Shown: positions 7,239-15,876 of the stretch, piece by piece
Layout: every line of letters begins with the position of its first letter
How positions within the stretch are numbered: the first letter of the stretch is position 1
Virus record (IMG/VR): IMGVR_UViG_3300031952_000028
Span: 1 to 48,731 of that record
DNA length: 48,731 nucleotides
Strand: one strand, 5' to 3'
DNA from: a virus
Notes under the pieces: generated by a model
What the model was told of the DNA's origin: nothing
Database searches by the model: none
Seen by the model: the letters and a program-made list of their open reading frames with translations, nothing else
Made by a program: the position numbers and the translations under genes

Positions 7239-8509
7239 AAATTTTGTACCTCCCTATATACTTTTAATGCCTCCACCCAACTTCCCTGCCAAAGATTATA
7301 AGCCTCGATAAAATCATTTATTTTCAATCTTCCGGCCATAACCAAATCATAGACCTCCGCTATCCAGGCAAAATCTTCCTGCCATGTTTTAATAAAATCC
7401 GGCCTGTTTTTTTCAATCCAGGTATAACAGTCACAGGTGAGGGTCCTATCGTATGCCTCCACCCCTGCCGCGGAAATGGCCGCCATGATTCCGGAGAAAT
7501 CCTTTTCATCAATATTGTCCAACTGCTGAATAATTGGCACCTGTATTGGCGCGGCAATGTCCAAGGATTTTCTGGTTTGTCTATGCTTTTGCTCGTGTGC
7601 CTGCGGAAAATATTTATTGATTCCGATAGCTATCCATTCCTGAAGTTCCACTCCGTTTACCCACATTTCCCCAGGATCTTTTCCCTCGATCGGGGGGAGC
7701 CTGCGCGCCTGTGGAAAATGCTGCATCCACCACTGCGCCTCTTTCGCTCCCGGATTCTGCCCATCCTCCCTGTCCTCATCACTATCCAGCGCCACCAGGA
7801 TCAAATCCGCTGCCTGTAACAACTCAAAAGCCCGTTTGTCCGGCCTGACCGATGCGCTGCCAAGGGCCACCACTCCGGCAAGGGGAGAGGCCATATTGCC
7901 AAGTTCCTGAGTCAGAAGAATAGCGTCAAACTCCGATTCGACTACCACAATGACCTGGTGGGGTTCGGTCGGGATCATAGCCGCCGAAGTGGAGCCGGAA
8001 ACTATTGCATAAGCCGGCCCCTGTTCGGGGGTGCGGCTCTGTTGATTTAACCGCCTGATTTTCGCTCGCTGAAGAATCCCGTCAGCAAAGTATGGGATCA
8101 CGATCCCTTGCGGCAGCCAGATATCCTGTTGTGTGCCGTCTTCTTTGAGCTTTTCAGGGAGACCCCAGAAAACACGCTCACGATTCAATCCTACGGGGTT
8201 CCACCCCAGGCGTGATAGTTTGATCGTGTCGAGAGTCAGCCCCCTCTCAGAACGCAAATAAGAGAGGATTCCGGTATTATTTAAAAGCTGCGCATATGCC
8301 CAGTCAACAAAAGCAGAGCACTTTTGGGTCCATTCAGGTGAAGGCGGAGTAATTTCCCGCGGGGTCCACTTGCGGCCATTACCATTCCTTTTTTCATATT
8401 GCTGGAACTTGCCGCAATCTGCACAATCTACACGGAGGTGGACCATCCCGTTTGAGCAAATCTGATCACTTTTTTTTAAATTATTGCTTCCGCAATGTTT
8501 GCATGTCAT
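7235..8509 (-). CDS. DnaG-like TOPRIM primase
   Basis: A 424-residue primase. An N-terminal zinc ribbon uses C3, C6, C29 and C32. The RNA-polymerase-like part follows, and the TOPRIM domain has its glutamate in VIVVVESEFDAILL (E191) and the DxD in LVALDSDEDRED (D242, D244). There is no helicase domain; the C-terminal region (about 330-424) is helical and may dock a helicase or SSB. It makes RNA primers for lagging-strand synthesis. Its ribosome-binding site is weak (CAGGTAG), and a candidate short ORF overlaps its start by 29 bp. Confidence 0.9.
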   Translation of the reverse strand: MTCKHCGSNNLKKSDQICSNGMVHLRVDCADCGKFQQYEKRNGNGRKWTPREITPPSPEWTQKCSAFVDWAYAQLLNNTGILSYLRSERGLTLDTIKLSRLGWNPVGLNRERVFWGLPEKLKEDGTQQDIWLPQGIVIPYFADGILQRAKIRRLNQQSRTPEQGPAYAIVSGSTSAAMIPTEPHQVIVVVESEFDAILLTQELGNMASPLAGVVALGSASVRPDKRAFELLQAADLILVALDSDEDREDGQNPGAKEAQWWMQHFPQARRLPPIEGKDPGEMWVNGVELQEWIAIGINKYFPQAHEQKHRQTRKSLDIAAPIQVPIIQQLDNIDEKDFSGIMAAISAAGVEAYDRTLTCDCYTWIEKNRPDFIKTWQEDFAWIAEVYDLVMAGRLKINDFIEAYNLWQGSWVEALKVYREVQNL

Positions 8510-8733: not shown

Positions 8734-9384
8734 TTATGTCTATTAACATATTGATAACGTTATAAAAGTAACATTGTTACCCTTTTGTTACCTTTTTATC
8801 ATCTATTAATATATTGATAATATTAATCATGTAACCATTGTAACCATTGTAACCTTTTTTGAACGGAGCACACAGCCTATGAATATTCCCTAATGTGTAG
8901 TACATGTGTATTACACGTTCTTGTGCGTACCCTATTCTTAAAAATGGTTACAATGGTTACAATGGTTACATAATAATATCAAATCTTTGTTTTTATTAAT
9001 AATTAATTGTAACCTTTTTAAAAGTAAAAAGGTTACAATGGTTACATTATTGAATTCATTATGTCTATTAACATATTGATAACGTTATAAAAGTAACATT
9101 GTTACCCTTTTGTTACCTTTTTATCATCTATTAATATATTGATAATATTAATCATGTAACCATTGTAACCATTGTAACCTTTTTTGAACGGAGCACACAG
9201 CCTATGAATATTCCCTAATGTGTAGTACATGTGTATTACACGTTCTTGTGCGTACCCTATTCTTAAAAATGGTTACAATGGTTACAATGGTTACAAATAA
9301 TATCAAATCTTTGTTTTTATTAATAATTAATTGTAACCTTTTTAAAAGTAAAAAGGTTACAATGGTTACATTATTGAATTCATT
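8734..9384. repeat. Tandem 325-bp duplication with TGTAACC/GGTTACA iterons
   Basis: Copy 1 is 8734-9058 and copy 2 is 9059-9384, identical by eye except for small differences including a 1-bp gap near 8971/9295. Each copy holds three TGTAACCAT units at 9-bp steps (8830, 8839, 8848 in copy 1), three inverted GGTTACAAT units (8946, 8955, 8964), a hairpin of TGTAACCTTTTT and AAAAAGGTTACA, and more single motifs, about nine exact 7-mers per copy. The sequence is very A+T-rich and lies between the PrimPol-helicase and primase genes. It is a candidate iteron origin or a regulatory region. Confidence 0.88.
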
Positions 9385-9439
9385 GATTAAATTAAATGAC
9401 AGCACTTTAAAAATATACATTTAACTTGTGTTATTTTAA

Positions 9440-12376
9440 TTAAAATGGTAGTATTTCACTCTCATAACTCCAAAATTCGGAAAGTTCAAGCCTTTTGATT
9501 GTCATTTTGTCAATATTTAGCTCAAAAGCTTTTCTTACGTTTTGCCCAATTCTTACAGGTTTGTTACTGTTCATGTAGTACGATTCTCTTTGTAACTGCT
9601 TTTTGAAGATTGATTCCGGCAACAAATCACCTTCGAATCTATAAGATTTTGCCCACTTTAGAAACTTTGGATAAGAACCATGAACATATAGCCTTAAAAC
9701 TGATATTCCAGGTTCATAAATGATATCGTAATCAACATCTTTCTCTAAATAATCCTGGTAGGAATATTGTCTCTCTTCTCTGTTTCCTATAGTTTTAGTC
9801 TGGAATTCACACATTAAACACATAGCTTCGAGAATTTTGTCAACTGCACTTTTACGGTGGAATGAATCGCCTTCTTTGATCCCTTCCTTAACCGCTACAT
9901 CAACCTGCGATAGGTCAAATTGCATCCCTAACACATCGCTCAAGATCCGAAGACCAAACCTGACCACTGCTGCATTAGTTCGCGGCCTGTCCTCGAGTTC
10001 AGAATCAACCGCTTCAAGCTCCTTTTCCAGGATATTTTTGACCTCTTCCCTGCCCATTCTGAGAGCCTTTTCCAGGATAGACCGACCCAGTTTTTCAAGT
10101 GGTTGTTTGCGCAATTCTTTAAAGTTTTGCAAATATGGAGAACTATCCCTTTTAGAGAGAAACACGGTGACAAACCTATCCAGTAAGGCAGATTCGGTGA
10201 ATCCGGTTTCTCCGATTATTACCACGGGTGCCTGATATCGATAAACCTGTGTAGTCTGATCGGCCCTGCCCCGCTCACCTTCGAGACAATTATAAATTGA
10301 TCTTATGAGATTACTGATAAGGTTCTGGAAGTAATCTGTCTGCATACATGCCTTATTTTCTTCCAGAATTACAGGTATCGTGTTTGAGCCGTCAACCATT
10401 TTCATCATTGTGAATTTAGTGAGTTCACCGATAGATTTTGGTTCCCCCTGGATAGCCCACATTCGCATAATAACCGCTTCTGCACTTTGCGTTTTCCCCG
10501 ATCCAGCTTCCCCTTGGATGTTCAAAAGAGGGAATCCGTTACTTAAGCCTATTTCATCCAAAGTTTCCGAGATAATGGATTTTAAAAAGCAAGCTGTAAT
10601 CCATCCCAGGACAGGTAAGGATACTATGGAAATATTGAAGTTAGCGATATGCTTTCTTATCCCTGAAAGTTCGTCTGCTGTAGCCGGTTCCACGGATAAT
10701 AGCTTGCAGTTAGTAGGCACCTCATTAAAATAGACAACATCCTCAGATATGCCTTGGATAGACAAGGCACCCTCTTCGGTAACGAATTTACCATCGTGAA
10801 AACCTGAAGTCCTCACTCCAGCCTTGTGTGCCATCTCGAAGGTAGACATAAGAAATCTGATATACTGAACATCTATCGTACTTCCAGCGAAGACGGTTTC
10901 CTTGCCTGGCAGGACATTCATAAACTTTTGGGTATTTGACCAACATCCGGGAGGGAATAAGACTTTTTTAAATTCTTTGTATCCAGCTTTGATATTTACG
11001 TTGAGAGTTTCACCTTCACCTTTGATGGTAATTGATTCGATAGGTTCAATGCTAAAAGTGGTTATCTGCACCTCTTCACGGATCTTTTCTCCGAATCTTT
11101 CCTTAATCTTAATTTTCCAAATTCGGCCATCTTTCTCGAAAACCGGATTACTGATGTAGCGGTTTAATTCTTCTTCAGTATTTTTCAGCGCCTTGGATTC
11201 GGTCTCTTTTTGTGCTTTTTCTTCCTTCCATGCCTTCAAAAGACCTTTTATCTCGTCAGCACTAAGAGAGAATTTTTTTTTGAGTTGTTCCTTTAGGATT
11301 CGGTTAACTTTTAGCTCATCACATTCAATAAGATCATTCAGAACGAAATATCTAACCTGGCTGATAGCTTCTGTAGGATCTGGATTGACTTCAAGCCTGT
11401 TAATTTTTTTTTTCCATAACTCATCAATATCCTGTCTGTTTTGAGAGATAGCCTCTGCCGAAGTGGCCTGCTTTCCACGACCTCTGCCTTTATAGGTCTC
11501 AATACAGCCCTCAATGGCCCTGGATATGGTCATATCTCCATAGGTCTCTTCTCCATGCCGTTCATCCCATTTATCACGCATCAGACCGGATTGCCTGAAA
11601 AATGCATCTATCCGGTCATAGTCCTTTTTTGTCCAGAAAGCCAATTTTGAACACAGAGAAAGTTCGGCCTCACTTTGAGAGCGAAAACCTGATATATCAC
11701 CTTCCCAGAGGGCTTTAAATTCATGGCCATTTTTGGAATTTATGGCCTTATTGATCAACTCAGTATCGGATATGCTCAGAATGACATCTGTTTTATGCCC
11801 CCCCCCACTGTGTAACCTGCTGGGATGGTCTTCCAACAAACTGAAATGGATATCATTAATTTCATTTTGTCGTTTTTCTATGAGGGCAGGAGTGTTGTCC
11901 AGACGATTTCCGGTTATGGTCAGAAATCGACCCCTGACATAAATTTCGATGTCACCCCTTTTACACCGCCCAATAGGTTTCAGGGCTTCCGCATAAATGT
12001 GTACTCCTGTTCCTGAAGGAGAAAATTCACTATAAGAATTAAGTTGGTCGATGATCTTTTGCGCCCAGGGGAGAATAACGCCATTTTCAACGCAATGATC
12101 GAGATCGATTCCCGTATAGGGGTCGTCGTCGTAAAATTCAAAACCTAATCCATTATATTTTTTACTTTTTAAAGCATTACAAGCCTGTTCGAAGGTTCCC
12201 CAGGTCGCAGGATCATTCGCTTTTGCTGGATGTCCTGTTTTGGGGTCATAGGGCACTTTAGCCAGTTTGGATTCACCTTTGTCGATAAGTTTGTAACACA
12301 CCCAATGAGGATAATCCCGCAACTGTTGAGGGATATTATTAATTTTCCCAGAAAAATCATTATCGTTATCATTCAT
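9440..12376 (-). CDS. PrimPol (AEP) primase-polymerase fused to SF3-like helicase
   Basis: A 978-residue replication protein. Residues about 15-185 form an archaeo-eukaryotic-type primase: DxD in YTGIDLDHC (D91, D93), SPSGTGVHIYAEA with H126, and IEIYVRGRFLTITG. A helical linker (about 310-400) follows. A C-terminal AAA+/SF3-type helicase has Walker A GEAGSGKT near 622-629, Walker B-like VILEEN near 669-674 and sensor FVTVFLSKRD. Such proteins can prime and copy DNA and unwind it, as in phage and plasmid replicases such as NrS-1 polymerase. No other replicative polymerase is seen in the window. It ends about 55 bp from the iteron duplication. Confidence 0.9.
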   Translation of the reverse strand: MNDNDNDFSGKINNIPQQLRDYPHWVCYKLIDKGESKLAKVPYDPKTGHPAKANDPATWGTFEQACNALKSKKYNGLGFEFYDDDPYTGIDLDHCVENGVILPWAQKIIDQLNSYSEFSPSGTGVHIYAEALKPIGRCKRGDIEIYVRGRFLTITGNRLDNTPALIEKRQNEINDIHFSLLEDHPSRLHSGGGHKTDVILSISDTELINKAINSKNGHEFKALWEGDISGFRSQSEAELSLCSKLAFWTKKDYDRIDAFFRQSGLMRDKWDERHGEETYGDMTISRAIEGCIETYKGRGRGKQATSAEAISQNRQDIDELWKKKINRLEVNPDPTEAISQVRYFVLNDLIECDELKVNRILKEQLKKKFSLSADEIKGLLKAWKEEKAQKETESKALKNTEEELNRYISNPVFEKDGRIWKIKIKERFGEKIREEVQITTFSIEPIESITIKGEGETLNVNIKAGYKEFKKVLFPPGCWSNTQKFMNVLPGKETVFAGSTIDVQYIRFLMSTFEMAHKAGVRTSGFHDGKFVTEEGALSIQGISEDVVYFNEVPTNCKLLSVEPATADELSGIRKHIANFNISIVSLPVLGWITACFLKSIISETLDEIGLSNGFPLLNIQGEAGSGKTQSAEAVIMRMWAIQGEPKSIGELTKFTMMKMVDGSNTIPVILEENKACMQTDYFQNLISNLIRSIYNCLEGERGRADQTTQVYRYQAPVVIIGETGFTESALLDRFVTVFLSKRDSSPYLQNFKELRKQPLEKLGRSILEKALRMGREEVKNILEKELEAVDSELEDRPRTNAAVVRFGLRILSDVLGMQFDLSQVDVAVKEGIKEGDSFHRKSAVDKILEAMCLMCEFQTKTIGNREERQYSYQDYLEKDVDYDIIYEPGISVLRLYVHGSYPKFLKWAKSYRFEGDLLPESIFKKQLQRESYYMNSNKPVRIGQNVRKAFELNIDKMTIKRLELSEFWSYESEILPF

Positions 12377-12593: not shown

Positions 12594-12620
12594 CTTGCTT
12601 TCCGCCTGATTAAAAGGAGG

Positions 12621-12651
12621 CCCTGCGGGCATGGGCAAAATGCCCGCAGGG
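12621..12651. terminator. Strong GC-rich hairpin
   Basis: CCCTGCGGGCA (12621-12631) pairs perfectly with TGCCCGCAGGG (12641-12651) around TGGGCAAAA. On the minus strand GGCCTCCTTTT follows, a weak U-tract. It may attenuate leftward transcription entering the replication genes, or mark the edge of the inserted-looking region to its right. Confidence 0.5.
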
Positions 12652-12703
12652 TAATAAGGAAAGAAAAGGGGAATGCAAACCCGCCCGCAGGCAGGGTAAA
12701 GCC

Positions 12704-12738
12704 TTGACACTCCCACGGCTGAAGCCAGTGGGATTCTC
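12704..12738 (+). mobile_element. IS200/IS605-like terminal hairpin remnant (copy 1)
   Basis: TTGACACTCCCACGGC, a TGAA loop, then GCCAGTGGGATTC: stem CCCAC/GTGGG plus GGC/GCC with one bulged A. From memory, this shape and the flanking TTGAC and GATTC match ends of IS200/IS605 (TnpB-carrying) elements. No TnpA or TnpB is present, so it is a solo end or MITE-like relic. A second, covarying copy lies at 26496-26530. Confidence 0.5.
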
Positions 12739-12903
12739 AGGCAAACACCCTAATGGATGCTTAACACCTGAACGGTCTGCCCGACCGCTATAATCTGCCA
12801 TAAATTATATGTAAAATATCATAAAAAATATGAGAAAATTACTCGTCAGTATCCCCCCCCCTGTGTCCACCTACGCTAAACCTCTGGTATGGTTTTAGCA
12901 TCT

Positions 12904-12958
12904 GCTCTGTTGTGCTGAGCTGAACTGTACTGCGCTACACCACGCTGTGCTCAACGCT
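12904..12958. repeat. Short degenerate GCT/ACT pentamer array
   Basis: About eleven 5-bp units, most ending in CT: CTGTT GTGCT GAGCT GAACT GTACT GCGCT ACACC ACGCT GTGCT. It has the same period as the NNGCC arrays but a different fixed core and more decay. It runs into the CRISPR-like element at 12948. Confidence 0.55.
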
Positions 12959-12987
12959 TTTCGGTATCAGAGGGATAGATAGTTGCC
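12948..12987 (-). repeat. CRISPR-repeat-like element, inverted third copy
   Basis: By hand alignment this matches the reverse complement of the repeat at 14792-14831 at 32 of 40 positions, with 28 of the first 31 identical (TGCTCAACGC, then TTTCGG, ATCAGAG and GATAG blocks). It is the diverged, inverted partner of the two plus-strand copies, about 1.8 kb away across the regulator genes. Confidence 0.6.
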
Positions 12988-13389
12988 AAAGTTACCCCTG
13001 CAGGAGGCGCTGGCATCCTGCAGGGGTCCATCAAGTAGCAATCAGGCTTTCAGCCTGTGATTGCCAAAAGTTCCCCGGTCTGACAGGCCAAAGACCAGAC
13101 CGGAGTAGCCAAGTGCAATCGGGGAAGGCGTCCCCCGGAATTGCCAAAAATGAGCAAAGCAGTCGGTTATAAAATGTAACCAACTGGTAATATCGTGAGA
13201 AATCCTGCACGGGGGCCCTACAACAGGATGACTATTTTCTCTCGTTACCGTGCAGGGTTTGTACAACAGAGGGACCGGAATTGCCAAATGACCGGATTCA
13301 CCAGGAGAATGAATTCGGCACCTTTGCCAGAATGAAATCGATCAGATCGAACCGATCGCCCCTGTCACTCTAGGCGGTGGTAAATTTAA
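12960..13389. ncRNA. Candidate structured RNA: multi-hairpin region with TTGCCAAA repeats
   Basis: No credible gene lies here. Stems seen: 12994-13004/13017-13027 (11 bp, ACCCCTGCAGG); 13038-13048/13052-13064 (GCAATC-AGGCT with a 2-nt bulge); 13075-13082/13096-13103 (CCGGTCTG); 13115-13124/13133-13144 (GCAAT-CGGGG with a 2-nt bulge); 13161-13186 (GGTTA/TAACC); 13204-13212/13248-13256 (CCTGCACGG). TTGCCAAA recurs at 12983, 13061, 13141 and 13281; two copies close hairpins of identical design. The strand is undecided. Confidence 0.5.
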
Positions 13390-13424
13390 GCAGGTCCGGC
13401 CACTCAGCCCGTGGCCGGACCTGC
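13390..13424 (-). terminator. Terminator of the leftward regulator gene
   Basis: A perfect 14-bp stem, GCAGGTCCGGCCAC with GTGGCCGGACCTGC, around a 7-nt loop. On the minus strand TTAAATTTA follows. The stop codon of the gene at 13404-13697 lies in the loop, so the gene ends inside its own terminator. A second stem, GGGGCCAC/GTGGCCCC (about 13426-13454), lies just upstream within the coding sequence. Confidence 0.75.
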
Positions 13425-13697
13425 TGGGGCCACAACTTCTGCAACCGTGGCCCCTTCGCCGGAAATATCCCCATCGCAAGGAATATCCCTGTAGAAATCA
13501 GCAAAGCCGTAACCGGTTATCTCAATGAGTCTGGGAACATGCTTTGGGAGTATCTGTGCATGATATGGCGAAGAAAAATCCATACACCAGAACACAAGCC
13601 CGCACATGGATATCTTGATCCCTTTCTCATTGAGATAAACAAGAAACTCTTTATATGTAAAACCTTTTTCGATTTTAAACTTTTTTAGTGCTCTCAT
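13404..13697 (-). CDS. Putative HTH regulator of the leftward arm (repressor/Cro-like)
   Basis: A 97-residue basic protein. The N-terminal 65 residues (FKIEKGFTYKEFLVYLNEKG, then LPKHVPRLIEITGYGFADF) fit a compact helix-turn-helix of phage Cro/CI type; the C-terminal tail is low-complexity and partly encoded by terminator stems. It is divergent from the gene at 13856. A good promoter places the transcript start within a base of the ATG and no Shine-Dalgarno exists, so its mRNA looks leaderless, as for lambda cI from PRM. It probably controls both arms of the switch. Fold assignment is by pattern only. Confidence 0.6.
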   Translation of the reverse strand: MRALKKFKIEKGFTYKEFLVYLNEKGIKISMCGLVFWCMDFSSPYHAQILPKHVPRLIEITGYGFADFYRDIPCDGDISGEGATVAEVVAPAGPATG

Positions 13698-13704
13698 GAT
13701 TTAT

Positions 13705-13733
13705 ATATTAGTATGGCTAAGAATAGAAGTCAA
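13705..13733 (-). promoter_or_regulatory. Leftward promoter for a leaderless transcript
   Basis: -35 TTGACT (13733-13728), a 17-bp spacer, -10 TAATAT (13710-13705). Initiation 6-8 bp downstream falls at about 13698, next to the ATG at 13697. The 158-bp gap to the divergent gene should hold the operators. Confidence 0.75.
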
Positions 13734-13784
13734 ACTTTTTTATCAAGATTGATGAATTTTTTTTGTACTACTAAGGATAACTTA

Positions 13785-13825
13785 TTGAATTATAATTGTT
13801 TTTTAATATAAAAAAGGAGTATAAT
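13785..13825 (+). promoter_or_regulatory. Rightward promoter candidates of the switch
   Basis: TTGAAT (13785-13790) with 16 bp to TATAAA (13807-13812), or TTGTTT (13796-13801) with 18 bp to TATAAT (13820-13825). Both lie in the divergent intergenic region and would transcribe the gene at 13856. They are weaker than the leftward promoter by consensus match. Confidence 0.5.
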
Positions 13826-13855
13826 AAAATGCATATTCTCTGGGGGAAATAAAAA

Positions 13856-14611: not shown

Positions 14612-14632
14612 TATTTATTGATGAATTGATTA

Positions 14633-14693
14633 CCGCGAAGAAATCTTCCCCCAGAGGAGCTTCGCGGGAAAGTCCTGGGGAGCTTCGGCTCCC
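14633..14693 (+). ncRNA. Structured 5' part of the 14618 leader transcript
   Basis: Two stable stems in a row: CCGCGAAG (14633-14640) with CTTCGCGG (14660-14667), then GGGAGC (14678-14683), a TTCG tetraloop and GCTCCC (14688-14693). The C(UUCG)G cap is exceptionally stable in RNA. No T-tract follows, so it looks like a stable leader RNA rather than a terminator. No gene was found in 14520-14889. Confidence 0.55.
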
Positions 14694-14728
14694 TGGGGCA
14701 AAATTAATATCAATGATTATTTTTAGTG

Positions 14729-14831
14729 GATAATGATTATCTCTCTGATGCCGAAAGACGTTGAGCAAATATAAGAATATAAATCTGGGGGGATAATGAC
14801 TATCTCTCTGATGCCGAAAGGCGTTGAGCAT
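14729..14831 (+). CRISPR. Two-copy CRISPR-repeat-like element, no cas genes
   Basis: Two 40-bp direct repeats, 14729-14768 and 14792-14831, differ at two positions and are separated by a 23-bp spacer. The core GATGCC-GAAA-GGCGTT folds into a short GNRA-capped stem, followed by an 8-9-nt tail GTTGAGCA, the layout of processed CRISPR repeats. Copy 1 has a mismatch in the stem (AGAC). The 63-bp period is shorter than usual arrays. A third, inverted copy is at 12948-12987. No cas gene lies in the window. Confidence 0.5.
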
Positions 14832-14889: not shown

Positions 14890-15203
14890 ATGGAAGAAGT
14901 GCAGGAAGCAAAACAGGAAACAGAAGAATTACAAAAGCCTTTTTATATCGTCCGTACCTACTCCGCAGGCGTATTTTTTGGCCACATCAAAACCCGTGAG
15001 GGTAAGGAGATCGTAATGACCAATACCCGCATGCTGTGGTATTGGGATGGAGCGGCATCGCTTTCTCAATTGGCAATGGAGGGTACATCAAAACCAGCTA
15101 ACTGTATTTTTCCATGTGCGGTTGATCGAGTTGTATTAACTGAGGTTATCGAAATTTTAGATTGTACGGATGCAGCCGTCAAATCAATACAAGGAGTGCC
15201 AAT

Positions 15204-15216
<13 letters not shown>
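14890..15216 (+). CDS. DUF6948-like phage protein
   Basis: A 108-residue protein with a GGAGG-rich ribosome-binding site. The segment PFYIVRTYSAGVFFGHIKTR, then GKEIVMTNTRMLWYWDGAASLSQLAM and VVLTEVIEIL, matches a small conserved phage family that I recall as DUF6948, whose role is unknown. Many phages pair it with a following Gly-Tyr/Ser-rich repeat protein, as here: the next gene begins inside its last codons (13-bp overlap). It is the first cistron behind the promoter at 14583. Confidence 0.75.
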
Positions 15217-15593
<377 letters not shown>

Positions 15594-15603
15594 GCCACAA
15601 AAA

Positions 15604-15654
15604 AGCCGGTCTGTCGGGAAAGTCCATCCCCCATTGAGCAATCCCGATCCGGCT
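15604..15654 (+). other. Bipartite hairpin before the ferredoxin gene
   Basis: AGCCGG (15604-15609) pairs with CCGGCT (15649-15654), and within it TCGGGA (15614-15619) pairs with TCCCGA (15642-15647). It lies between the (Gly-X) gene and the ferredoxin gene, 43 bp before the latter. No T-tract follows. Possible processing or attenuation site. Confidence 0.45.
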
Positions 15655-15696: not shown

Positions 15697-15876
15697 ATGC
15701 CACCAGTTATCGATACCTGGAAATGCACAGGCTGTGAGGTTTGTATTCAAACCTGTCCAAACGATTCTTTAATGATGGATGAAGGAAAACCGGTTTTAAA
15801 TCCTGACGGGTTTGAATGCGACGGTTGTGGAAGTTGCGTAGAGGAATGCCCTGAAGAGGCAATCACCATTATCTGA
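15697..15876 (+). CDS. 2[4Fe-4S] bacterial-type ferredoxin
   Basis: A 59-residue protein with both clusters of the 8Fe ferredoxin family intact: CTGCEVCIQTCP (C10, C13, C16, C20) and CDGCGSCVEECP (C41, C44, C47, C51). Length and symmetry are typical (55-60 residues). GAGGTG 6 nt before the ATG supports the start. It carries low-potential electrons in the cytoplasm of anaerobes, to hydrogenases, oxidoreductases or radical-SAM enzymes. In a phage it could be an auxiliary metabolic gene or a partner for an iron-sulphur host enzyme; no partner is visible here. Confidence 0.92.
   Translation: MPPVIDTWKCTGCEVCIQTCPNDSLMMDEGKPVLNPDGFECDGCGSCVEECPEEAITII

Follow-up and report, generated by a model that had tools for sequence, protein, structure and literature searches.

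Paired hairpin modules and putative CRISPR-repeat copies beside the genetic switch of a probable temperate phage

Described systems and the setting of the region

The putR element of phage HK022 is about 70 nt in length, comprises two stem-loops and is located downstream of the PR start at a distance of about 270 nt (PMC9378689). The put RNAs (putL and putR) reportedly involve a triplex, binding to the β′ zinc-binding domain and protein-independent antitermination via that domain. In RacrIF1, an RNA anti-CRISPR that mimics a CRISPR repeat, changes to the stem abolished activity and changes to the handle were tolerated, and the SRUFinder procedure recognizes a solitary repeat unit by ≥90% identity to a known repeat over ≥90% of that repeat (both PMC10651486). 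The NrS-1 polymerase recognizes TTTGGTTA (PMC8718748). The locus described here is compared with each of these systems in turn.

The locus is part of a virus record of 48,731 bases that was analyzed in its entirety and is referred to below as the window. The window includes genes for a sigma factor, helicase, primase, integrase, portal, major capsid, tape-measure and terminase, a gene set from which the source most likely is a temperate tailed phage. The hairpin region (12960–13389) is positioned between a 97-aa open reading frame (ORF) in the cro position, which produced no family match at E 0.001 in PHROGs or Pfam, and the leftward replication genes (Table 1). An earlier note on this DNA had placed the region between a switch terminator and the replication genes. 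The replication genes indeed lie leftward, but the hairpin at the supposed terminator site (13389–13425) is followed by a weak T run and was not flagged by the terminator scan. The scan yielded four terminator-like sites compared with a mean of 1.9 in shuffles, so that the terminator-like hairpins it placed leftward of the region constitute weak evidence.

Other features of the window were recorded in passing. A 59-aa two-cluster 4Fe-4S ferredoxin-like phage gene at 15697–15876 (plus strand) hints at an anaerobic host, and a long tandem repeat of a short unit occupies 15184–15627, where several open frames specify glycine-serine-tyrosine or leucine-arginine runs. Six TTATCCACA sites, which we take to match the DnaA box consensus, are present at 44–165 at the left end of the contig.

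Table 1. Features of the hairpin region and its surroundings, in window coordinates; G275 and G240 are bacterial genomes that carry the CRISPR repeat.
Feature	Coordinates	Strand	Remarks
978-aa primase-polymerase, NrS-1 polymerase relative	9440–12376	−	First large replication gene
Two intrinsic-terminator-like hairpins	12621–12695	−	12695–12680 and 12651–12621; ahead of next genes; terminator scan
IS200/IS605-type right-end hairpin	12704–12737	−	Like those after tnpB; no tnpB beside it
R3, putative degenerate CRISPR repeat	12947–12982	−	29/36 to G275 repeat; 24/26 core to G240; stem broken
Four TTTGGCAA sites	12983–13288	−	12983–12990, 13061–13068, 13141–13148, 13281–13288; 306 bp
Module U2, 78 nt	12991–13068	−	TTTGGCAAT, GCAAT/ATTGC hairpin 13038–13064, linker, GC-rich hairpin 12994–13027
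Stem	12994–13027		14/15 pairs
Module U1, 80 nt	13069–13148	−	TTTGGCAAT, GCAAT/ATTGC hairpin 13115–13144, linker, GC-rich hairpin 13075–13103
Stem	13075–13103		8/8 pairs, read from sequence
Hairpin CAGTCGGTTA/TAACCAACTG	13160–13186	Unassigned	9/10 pairs, read from sequence
Long-range stem AAATCCTGCACGG/CCGTGCAGGGTTT	13200–13260	Unassigned	12/13 pairs
Stem	13292–13318		8/9 pairs
Perfect 15-bp inverted repeat	13389–13425	−	15/15; around stop codon of 97-aa ORF; right edge of region
97-aa ORF, cro position	13404–13697	−	Promoter-like site 13733–13705 upstream
R1, putative CRISPR-repeat copy	14733–14768	+	28/36 to G275; one stem pair broken
R2, putative CRISPR-repeat copy	14796–14831	+	28/36 to G275; 25/26 core to G240; stem intact

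Hairpin modules and the leftward early operon

The repeats and stems described in the earlier note were recovered. Two hairpins of one design, GCAAT...ATTGCCAAAA, are found at 13038–13069 and 13115–13149, and both contain the 2-nt bulge, with unpaired TG and GA, respectively, preceding the 3′ arm. The motif TTGCCAAA recurs as claimed, with copies at 12983, 13061, 13141 and 13281, and TTGCCAAA(A)GTTnCCCC occurs twice (12983–12998 and 13061–13076). At least six good stems had been proposed; the two GCAAT hairpins and six further stems were located. Searches of PHROGs and Pfam likewise gave no sign of a gene in the region, as the 59-aa and 81-aa ORFs on its minus strand had no family match in either collection.

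The four TTTGGCAA sites each are placed 3′ of a hairpin on the minus strand. The window contains eight copies of TTTGGCAA compared with 3.39 expected, half of which are clustered within 306 bp on one strand. When the region was subjected to dinucleotide shuffling (n = 2000), no shuffle held any 8-mer four times and ten held one in at least three copies; other 8-mer clusters also are present in the window. The modules U1 and U2 have in common TTTGGCAAT, the outer stem GCAAT/ATTGC, ACTTG and a second GC-rich hairpin. Their inner stems differ yet both pair (CGGGG/CCCCG in U1 and CAGGCT/AGCCTG in U2), which agrees with the earlier description of different stem sequences within the same frame. These changes are compensation between two paralogous modules only, not cross-species covariation. 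A module descriptor (GGCAAT, 8–30 nt with a stem of at least four pairs, ATTGC) matched U1 and U2 only in the window and nothing in 241 other loci, a set that did not include three further loci that duplicate the window.

DNA, pattern and neighbor-protein searches, from which records very near to the window may have been excluded, yielded no homologue of the modules. DNA searches with the region returned only R3, the IS-type end, a BRO-like palindrome and short weak matches taken as chance. An exact module pattern was discarded after it gave 27 chance-like matches in viral contigs, the two with paired sites sharing one coding ORF. Searches with the 978-aa and 97-aa proteins recovered no close relative, and nothing was found in genome contigs with the 978-aa protein; terminase relatives were 35–49% identical, and those retrieved from genome contigs with the terminase alignment were 37–44% identical.

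The description of the region as structured is upheld by folding, which surpassed shuffles on both strands: z was −3.82 for the plus strand and −5.34 for the minus strand, with 0/100 shuffles as good on each. In a scan of 400-nt segments, 195 of 244 of which were scored, the two strands of the region ranked third and seventh and the strongest fold was that of the iteron region at 8801. As the minus strand is better in z and the plus strand scores better in the scan, the strand is undecidable from energy, and neither z-scores nor G-U pairs settle it.

Repeated modules with different stem sequences in one frame led the earlier note to suggest selected structure as in large phage-borne RNAs such as GOLLD or ROOL, and a strong multi-stem fold in a phage speaks for a large ornate RNA of this kind. 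This kinship found no support in Rfam: no family attained its gathering score anywhere in the window, and no large RNA of this type matched 12600–13480 at E up to 10, which makes membership in that group very improbable. With lax settings, the sole match below E = 1 in 12600–13480 was CRISPR-DR33 at 12983–12947 (minus strand, E 0.0039, below gathering). A FinP match at 14629–14705 (E 0.033, below gathering) was taken as chance.

The reading favored here, tentatively and at well short of even likelihood, is that a temperate phage here carries a cis-acting, non-coding, structured element that controls its leftward early operon; confidence in the mechanism is low. Leftward transcription behind the cro-position gene would cross the region, with the minus strand as the presumed RNA strand. 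The leader RNA would fold into a series of hairpins in which ~80-nt two-hairpin modules are joined by TTTGGCAA, and may influence read-through by RNA polymerase of the terminator-like hairpins at 12695–12621 into the replication genes. The polymerase would be either let past these hairpins or stopped at them. The repeats, the stems, their position, the terminator-like sites downstream and, where the region ends on its 3′ side, the degenerate CRISPR repeat are direct observations that bear on this proposal. It is favored by the lack of family matches, by the minus-strand fold, by a location flanked on one side by the ORF in the cro position, itself preceded by a promoter-like site, and on the other by the two terminator-like hairpins of the minus strand, and by the retention of the outer stem and TTTGGCAAT frame in U1 and U2 while the differing inner stems still pair.

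The HK022 element provides a published analog (PMC9378689): like put, U1 and U2 are modules of ~70–80 nt that comprise two stem-loops each and are placed in an early operon between the cro position and terminators. The likeness is one of position and module size, and the present locus differs in possessing two modules plus further hairpins. Moreover, two stem-loops in 80 nt are not peculiar to put. Also unfavorable to the leader proposal are the plus strand, whose fold nearly equals that of the minus strand and in one comparison surpasses it; the absence of a homologue that could be examined for covariation; a promoter scan of the minus strand that disclosed no promoter specific to the region; and the restriction of the U1 and U2 design to this locus among the window and the 241 other loci.

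The region instead may act as DNA, with TTTGGCAA and cruciform-prone palindromes bound by a phage or host protein involved in repression, partition or recombination, so that no RNA is needed. The four sites share one direction, the stems are strong on both strands, palindromes fold alike on either strand, and three genomes have one of the palindromes in their BRO-like genes. Conversely, the spacings of the sites (140, 80 and 78 nt) are irregular, TTTGGCAA is missing between the divergent switch genes (13698–13855), and the primase-polymerase has its own iterons elsewhere. Action as DNA is possible, if somewhat less probable than the leader.

Iterons and the primase-polymerase

The 978-aa protein has the NrS-1 helix-bundle domain and matched solved primase chains (E about 5e-36) that presumably are those of NrS-1. 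The sequence of the solved chain is an exact match to the NrS-1 phage, which bears out this identity. In NrS-1, GGTTACACTTT-type iterons form a cluster that immediately follows the primase gene, and the experimentally defined site TTTGGTTA is embedded in it. The window is organized in the same manner, with GGTTACAATGG-type iterons at 8740–9390 directly downstream of the primase-polymerase, partly within a duplicated block of ~325 bp; this interval has 18 of the 34 GGTTAC/GTAACC sequences in the window. The single window copy of TTTGGTTA, at 7346 on the minus strand, falls outside these iterons. The best 80 primase-polymerase relatives in viral contigs were inspected, 74 of which had 500 nt past the stop codon and 77 of which had room upstream. 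Clusters of an 8-mer in at least four copies were detected downstream of the gene in 30 of 74 cases and upstream in 0 of 77. The likely replication origin thus is the iteron array at 8740–9390.

These data bear on the notion that TTTGGCAA is the template recognition site of an NrS-1-type primase-polymerase and the hairpin region the origin. The window protein is a relative of the NrS-1 polymerase, and the recognition sequence of the latter (PMC8718748) is similar to TTTGGCAA. However, the recognition sequence of NrS-1 resides among iterons downstream of the gene, the GGTTAC cluster of the window is placed alike, TTTGGCAA is not part of these iterons, and clusters were present downstream in 30 of 74 relatives and upstream in none of 77. 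The notion is the least credible of those considered, and an origin in the hairpin region was dropped in view of the downstream iterons in the window, in NrS-1 and in the relatives.

CRISPR-repeat copies and other shared pieces

The left 23 nt of the hairpin region belong to R3, which the earlier note overlooked. Compared with the repeats of bacterial genomes G275, G089 and G240, R3 has 23, 23 and 24 identities, respectively, in the last 26 core bases, and the best window sites other than R1–R3 have 17 or 18. The same scan disclosed R1 and R2, which are better copies than R3, and the CRISPR-DR33 model also fitted R2 (E 7.8e-5) and R1 (E 0.049), both below gathering. Folding indicated that the repeat stem is kept in R2 (−11.4 kcal/mol), weakened in R1 and lacking in R3; the last base of the handle is changed in R2. 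R1 and R2 lie at a 63-nt spacing, preceded by two strong hairpins and followed by a DUF6948 gene, whereas the 100 bp around R3 hold no second copy. The sequences behind R1, R2 and R3 were examined for self-targeting, with no convincing result. The best reading is that R1–R3 are copies of a CRISPR repeat in both early operons, beside the genetic switch. Immediately 3′ of R3 as read on the minus strand, the plus strand of 12902–12957 shows CT at an imperfect period of five bases.

The hairpin modules themselves are not decayed repeats. When modules at 12991–13389 were compared with five repeat sequences on two strands, the observed scores were reached by 23–288 of 300 shuffles, and this origin of the modules was rejected. 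A longer R3 query on the minus strand gave a similarity that only 2/300 shuffles reached, which was discounted because the query itself contains TTTGGCAA. As the modules are no more repeat-like than shuffles, R3 is a neighbor at the edge of the region; we regard it as a degraded relative of R1 and R2 that does not account for the hairpins.

The repeat family was traced in bacterial genomes. Among 192 genomes of the Desulfobacterales-bin class, four matched in the DNA search: G089, G275 and G240 within 12940–12994, and the fourth at the BRO-like palindrome. The order was represented by 242 genomes, of which eight matched a query spanning R1–R2. In G121 the match fell outside the repeat, which leaves seven that carry the family. 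A stricter pattern was present in three of 389 genomes of the class. G275 has an array of 37 exact copies at a spacing of 70–75 nt, and in G240 a single copy lies at the end of a contig. G089 has 83 exact copies in two adjacent stretches (32 + 51). Next to this array, PADLOC models recognized cas6, cas3, cas8b, cas7, cas5 and a cas4-cas1 gene, which identifies the system as type I-B. The 117 spacers of G089 and G275 contained no convincing match to the window; the best among the matches listed scored 26.3 bits.

In viral contigs the strict pattern occurred at one locus (L225) and a looser pattern at six. One contig with 54 repeat matches (L245) looks like a true array, perhaps in bacterial DNA. 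Two tailed-phage contigs, L246 and L247, have three copies in common, of which two lie at a 63-nt spacing; the degenerate copies are situated just behind the terminase gene (L247, 395–877), and the terminase and portal proteins show distant homology to those of the window (27–42% identity). L225, L248 and L249 have one copy each, that of L225 between two ORFs ending at 618 and 750. Thus, one or a few copies of the repeat family recur in several viral contigs. The hairpin modules were absent from L225 by descriptor search, and the repeats alone matched when L246–L249 were compared with the whole window by blastn.

By their 63-nt spacing, R1 and R2 would be classed as a mini-array. They resemble virus-borne mini-CRISPR arrays in comprising two repeats with a short stretch between them. 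Unlike those arrays, the 36-nt repeats are separated by 27 nt versus the 34–39 nt implied by the spacing in G275, and they are identical to none of the repeats in the genomes examined. The unique 22 nt between R1 and R2 had no exact match in viral contigs. The locus also shares with Racr and solitary repeat units (PMC10651486) a phage setting with intergenic copies of a repeat family that is found in bacterial CRISPR arrays. It differs in that R3 is below the 90% cut-off of SRUFinder and has no stem; relative to the best of six repeats, R3 attains 29/36 and R1 and R2 28/36 each, short of that cut-off.

Other parts of the locus have counterparts elsewhere. The 34 nt at 12704–12737 are common to diverse plasmids, in one of which they start nine bases past the end of tnpB, and possibly represent an orphan guide-RNA end. 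A palindrome near-identical to CAGTCGGTTATAAAATGTAACCAACTG at 13160–13186 is located inside BRO-like genes of G051, G237 and G352, and DNA matches to BRO-like genes cover 13146–13186 and 13157–13186. Bro-N was identified in one of two ORFs tested (L213), and a BRO pseudogene at the region was rejected when a search with the L213 protein gave no match there. The whole region accordingly might be a mosaic of worn pieces (CRISPR repeat, IS200/IS605 end, BRO palindrome and host-type palindromes) that now is functionless. The broken stem of R3, the tnpB-type right end devoid of tnpB, the 25-nt palindrome common to BRO-like genes, and DNA and protein searches that found no homologue with the same order all accord with such an origin. 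A fourfold 8-mer and matched hairpins with differing inner stems nevertheless are unexpected from decay. The mosaic is a shade less probable than action as DNA, and both are close behind the control element of the leftward operon.

It is unlikely that the leftward RNA is an RNA anti-CRISPR in which the hairpins carry or stabilize R3 as a repeat mimic that binds type I-B Cas proteins. The match of R3 is far above chance (24/26 core bases versus 18/26 for the next best site outside R1–R3), R1 and R2 are present in the other early operon, and four further sets of viral contigs have one or a few copies of the family. However, R3 forms no repeat stem, and stem changes abolished activity in the RacrIF1 account (PMC10651486); by that standard R2 could work as an anti-CRISPR repeat mimic and R3 could not. 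In addition, the hairpin modules have no excess similarity to repeats, and the G089 and G275 spacers gave no convincing match in the window among those listed. A broader version would have each early operon that leaves the switch carry a structured leader ending in CRISPR-repeat mimics (hairpins and R3 leftward, two hairpins with R1 and R2 rightward), so that anti-CRISPR RNA would be among the first products, with the hairpin array as antiterminator or RNA stabilizer. This version is more doubtful still.

If the preferred reading of a put-like leader is correct, antitermination by an RNA element would extend to a phage distant from the lambdoids. The iterons downstream of the primase-polymerase point to an origin that can be tested in phages of the NrS-1 type. 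Should the repeat copies function as mimics, RNA anti-CRISPRs in early operons would gain a type I-B example. Whichever reading holds, the degenerate repeats are a handle on the phage host.
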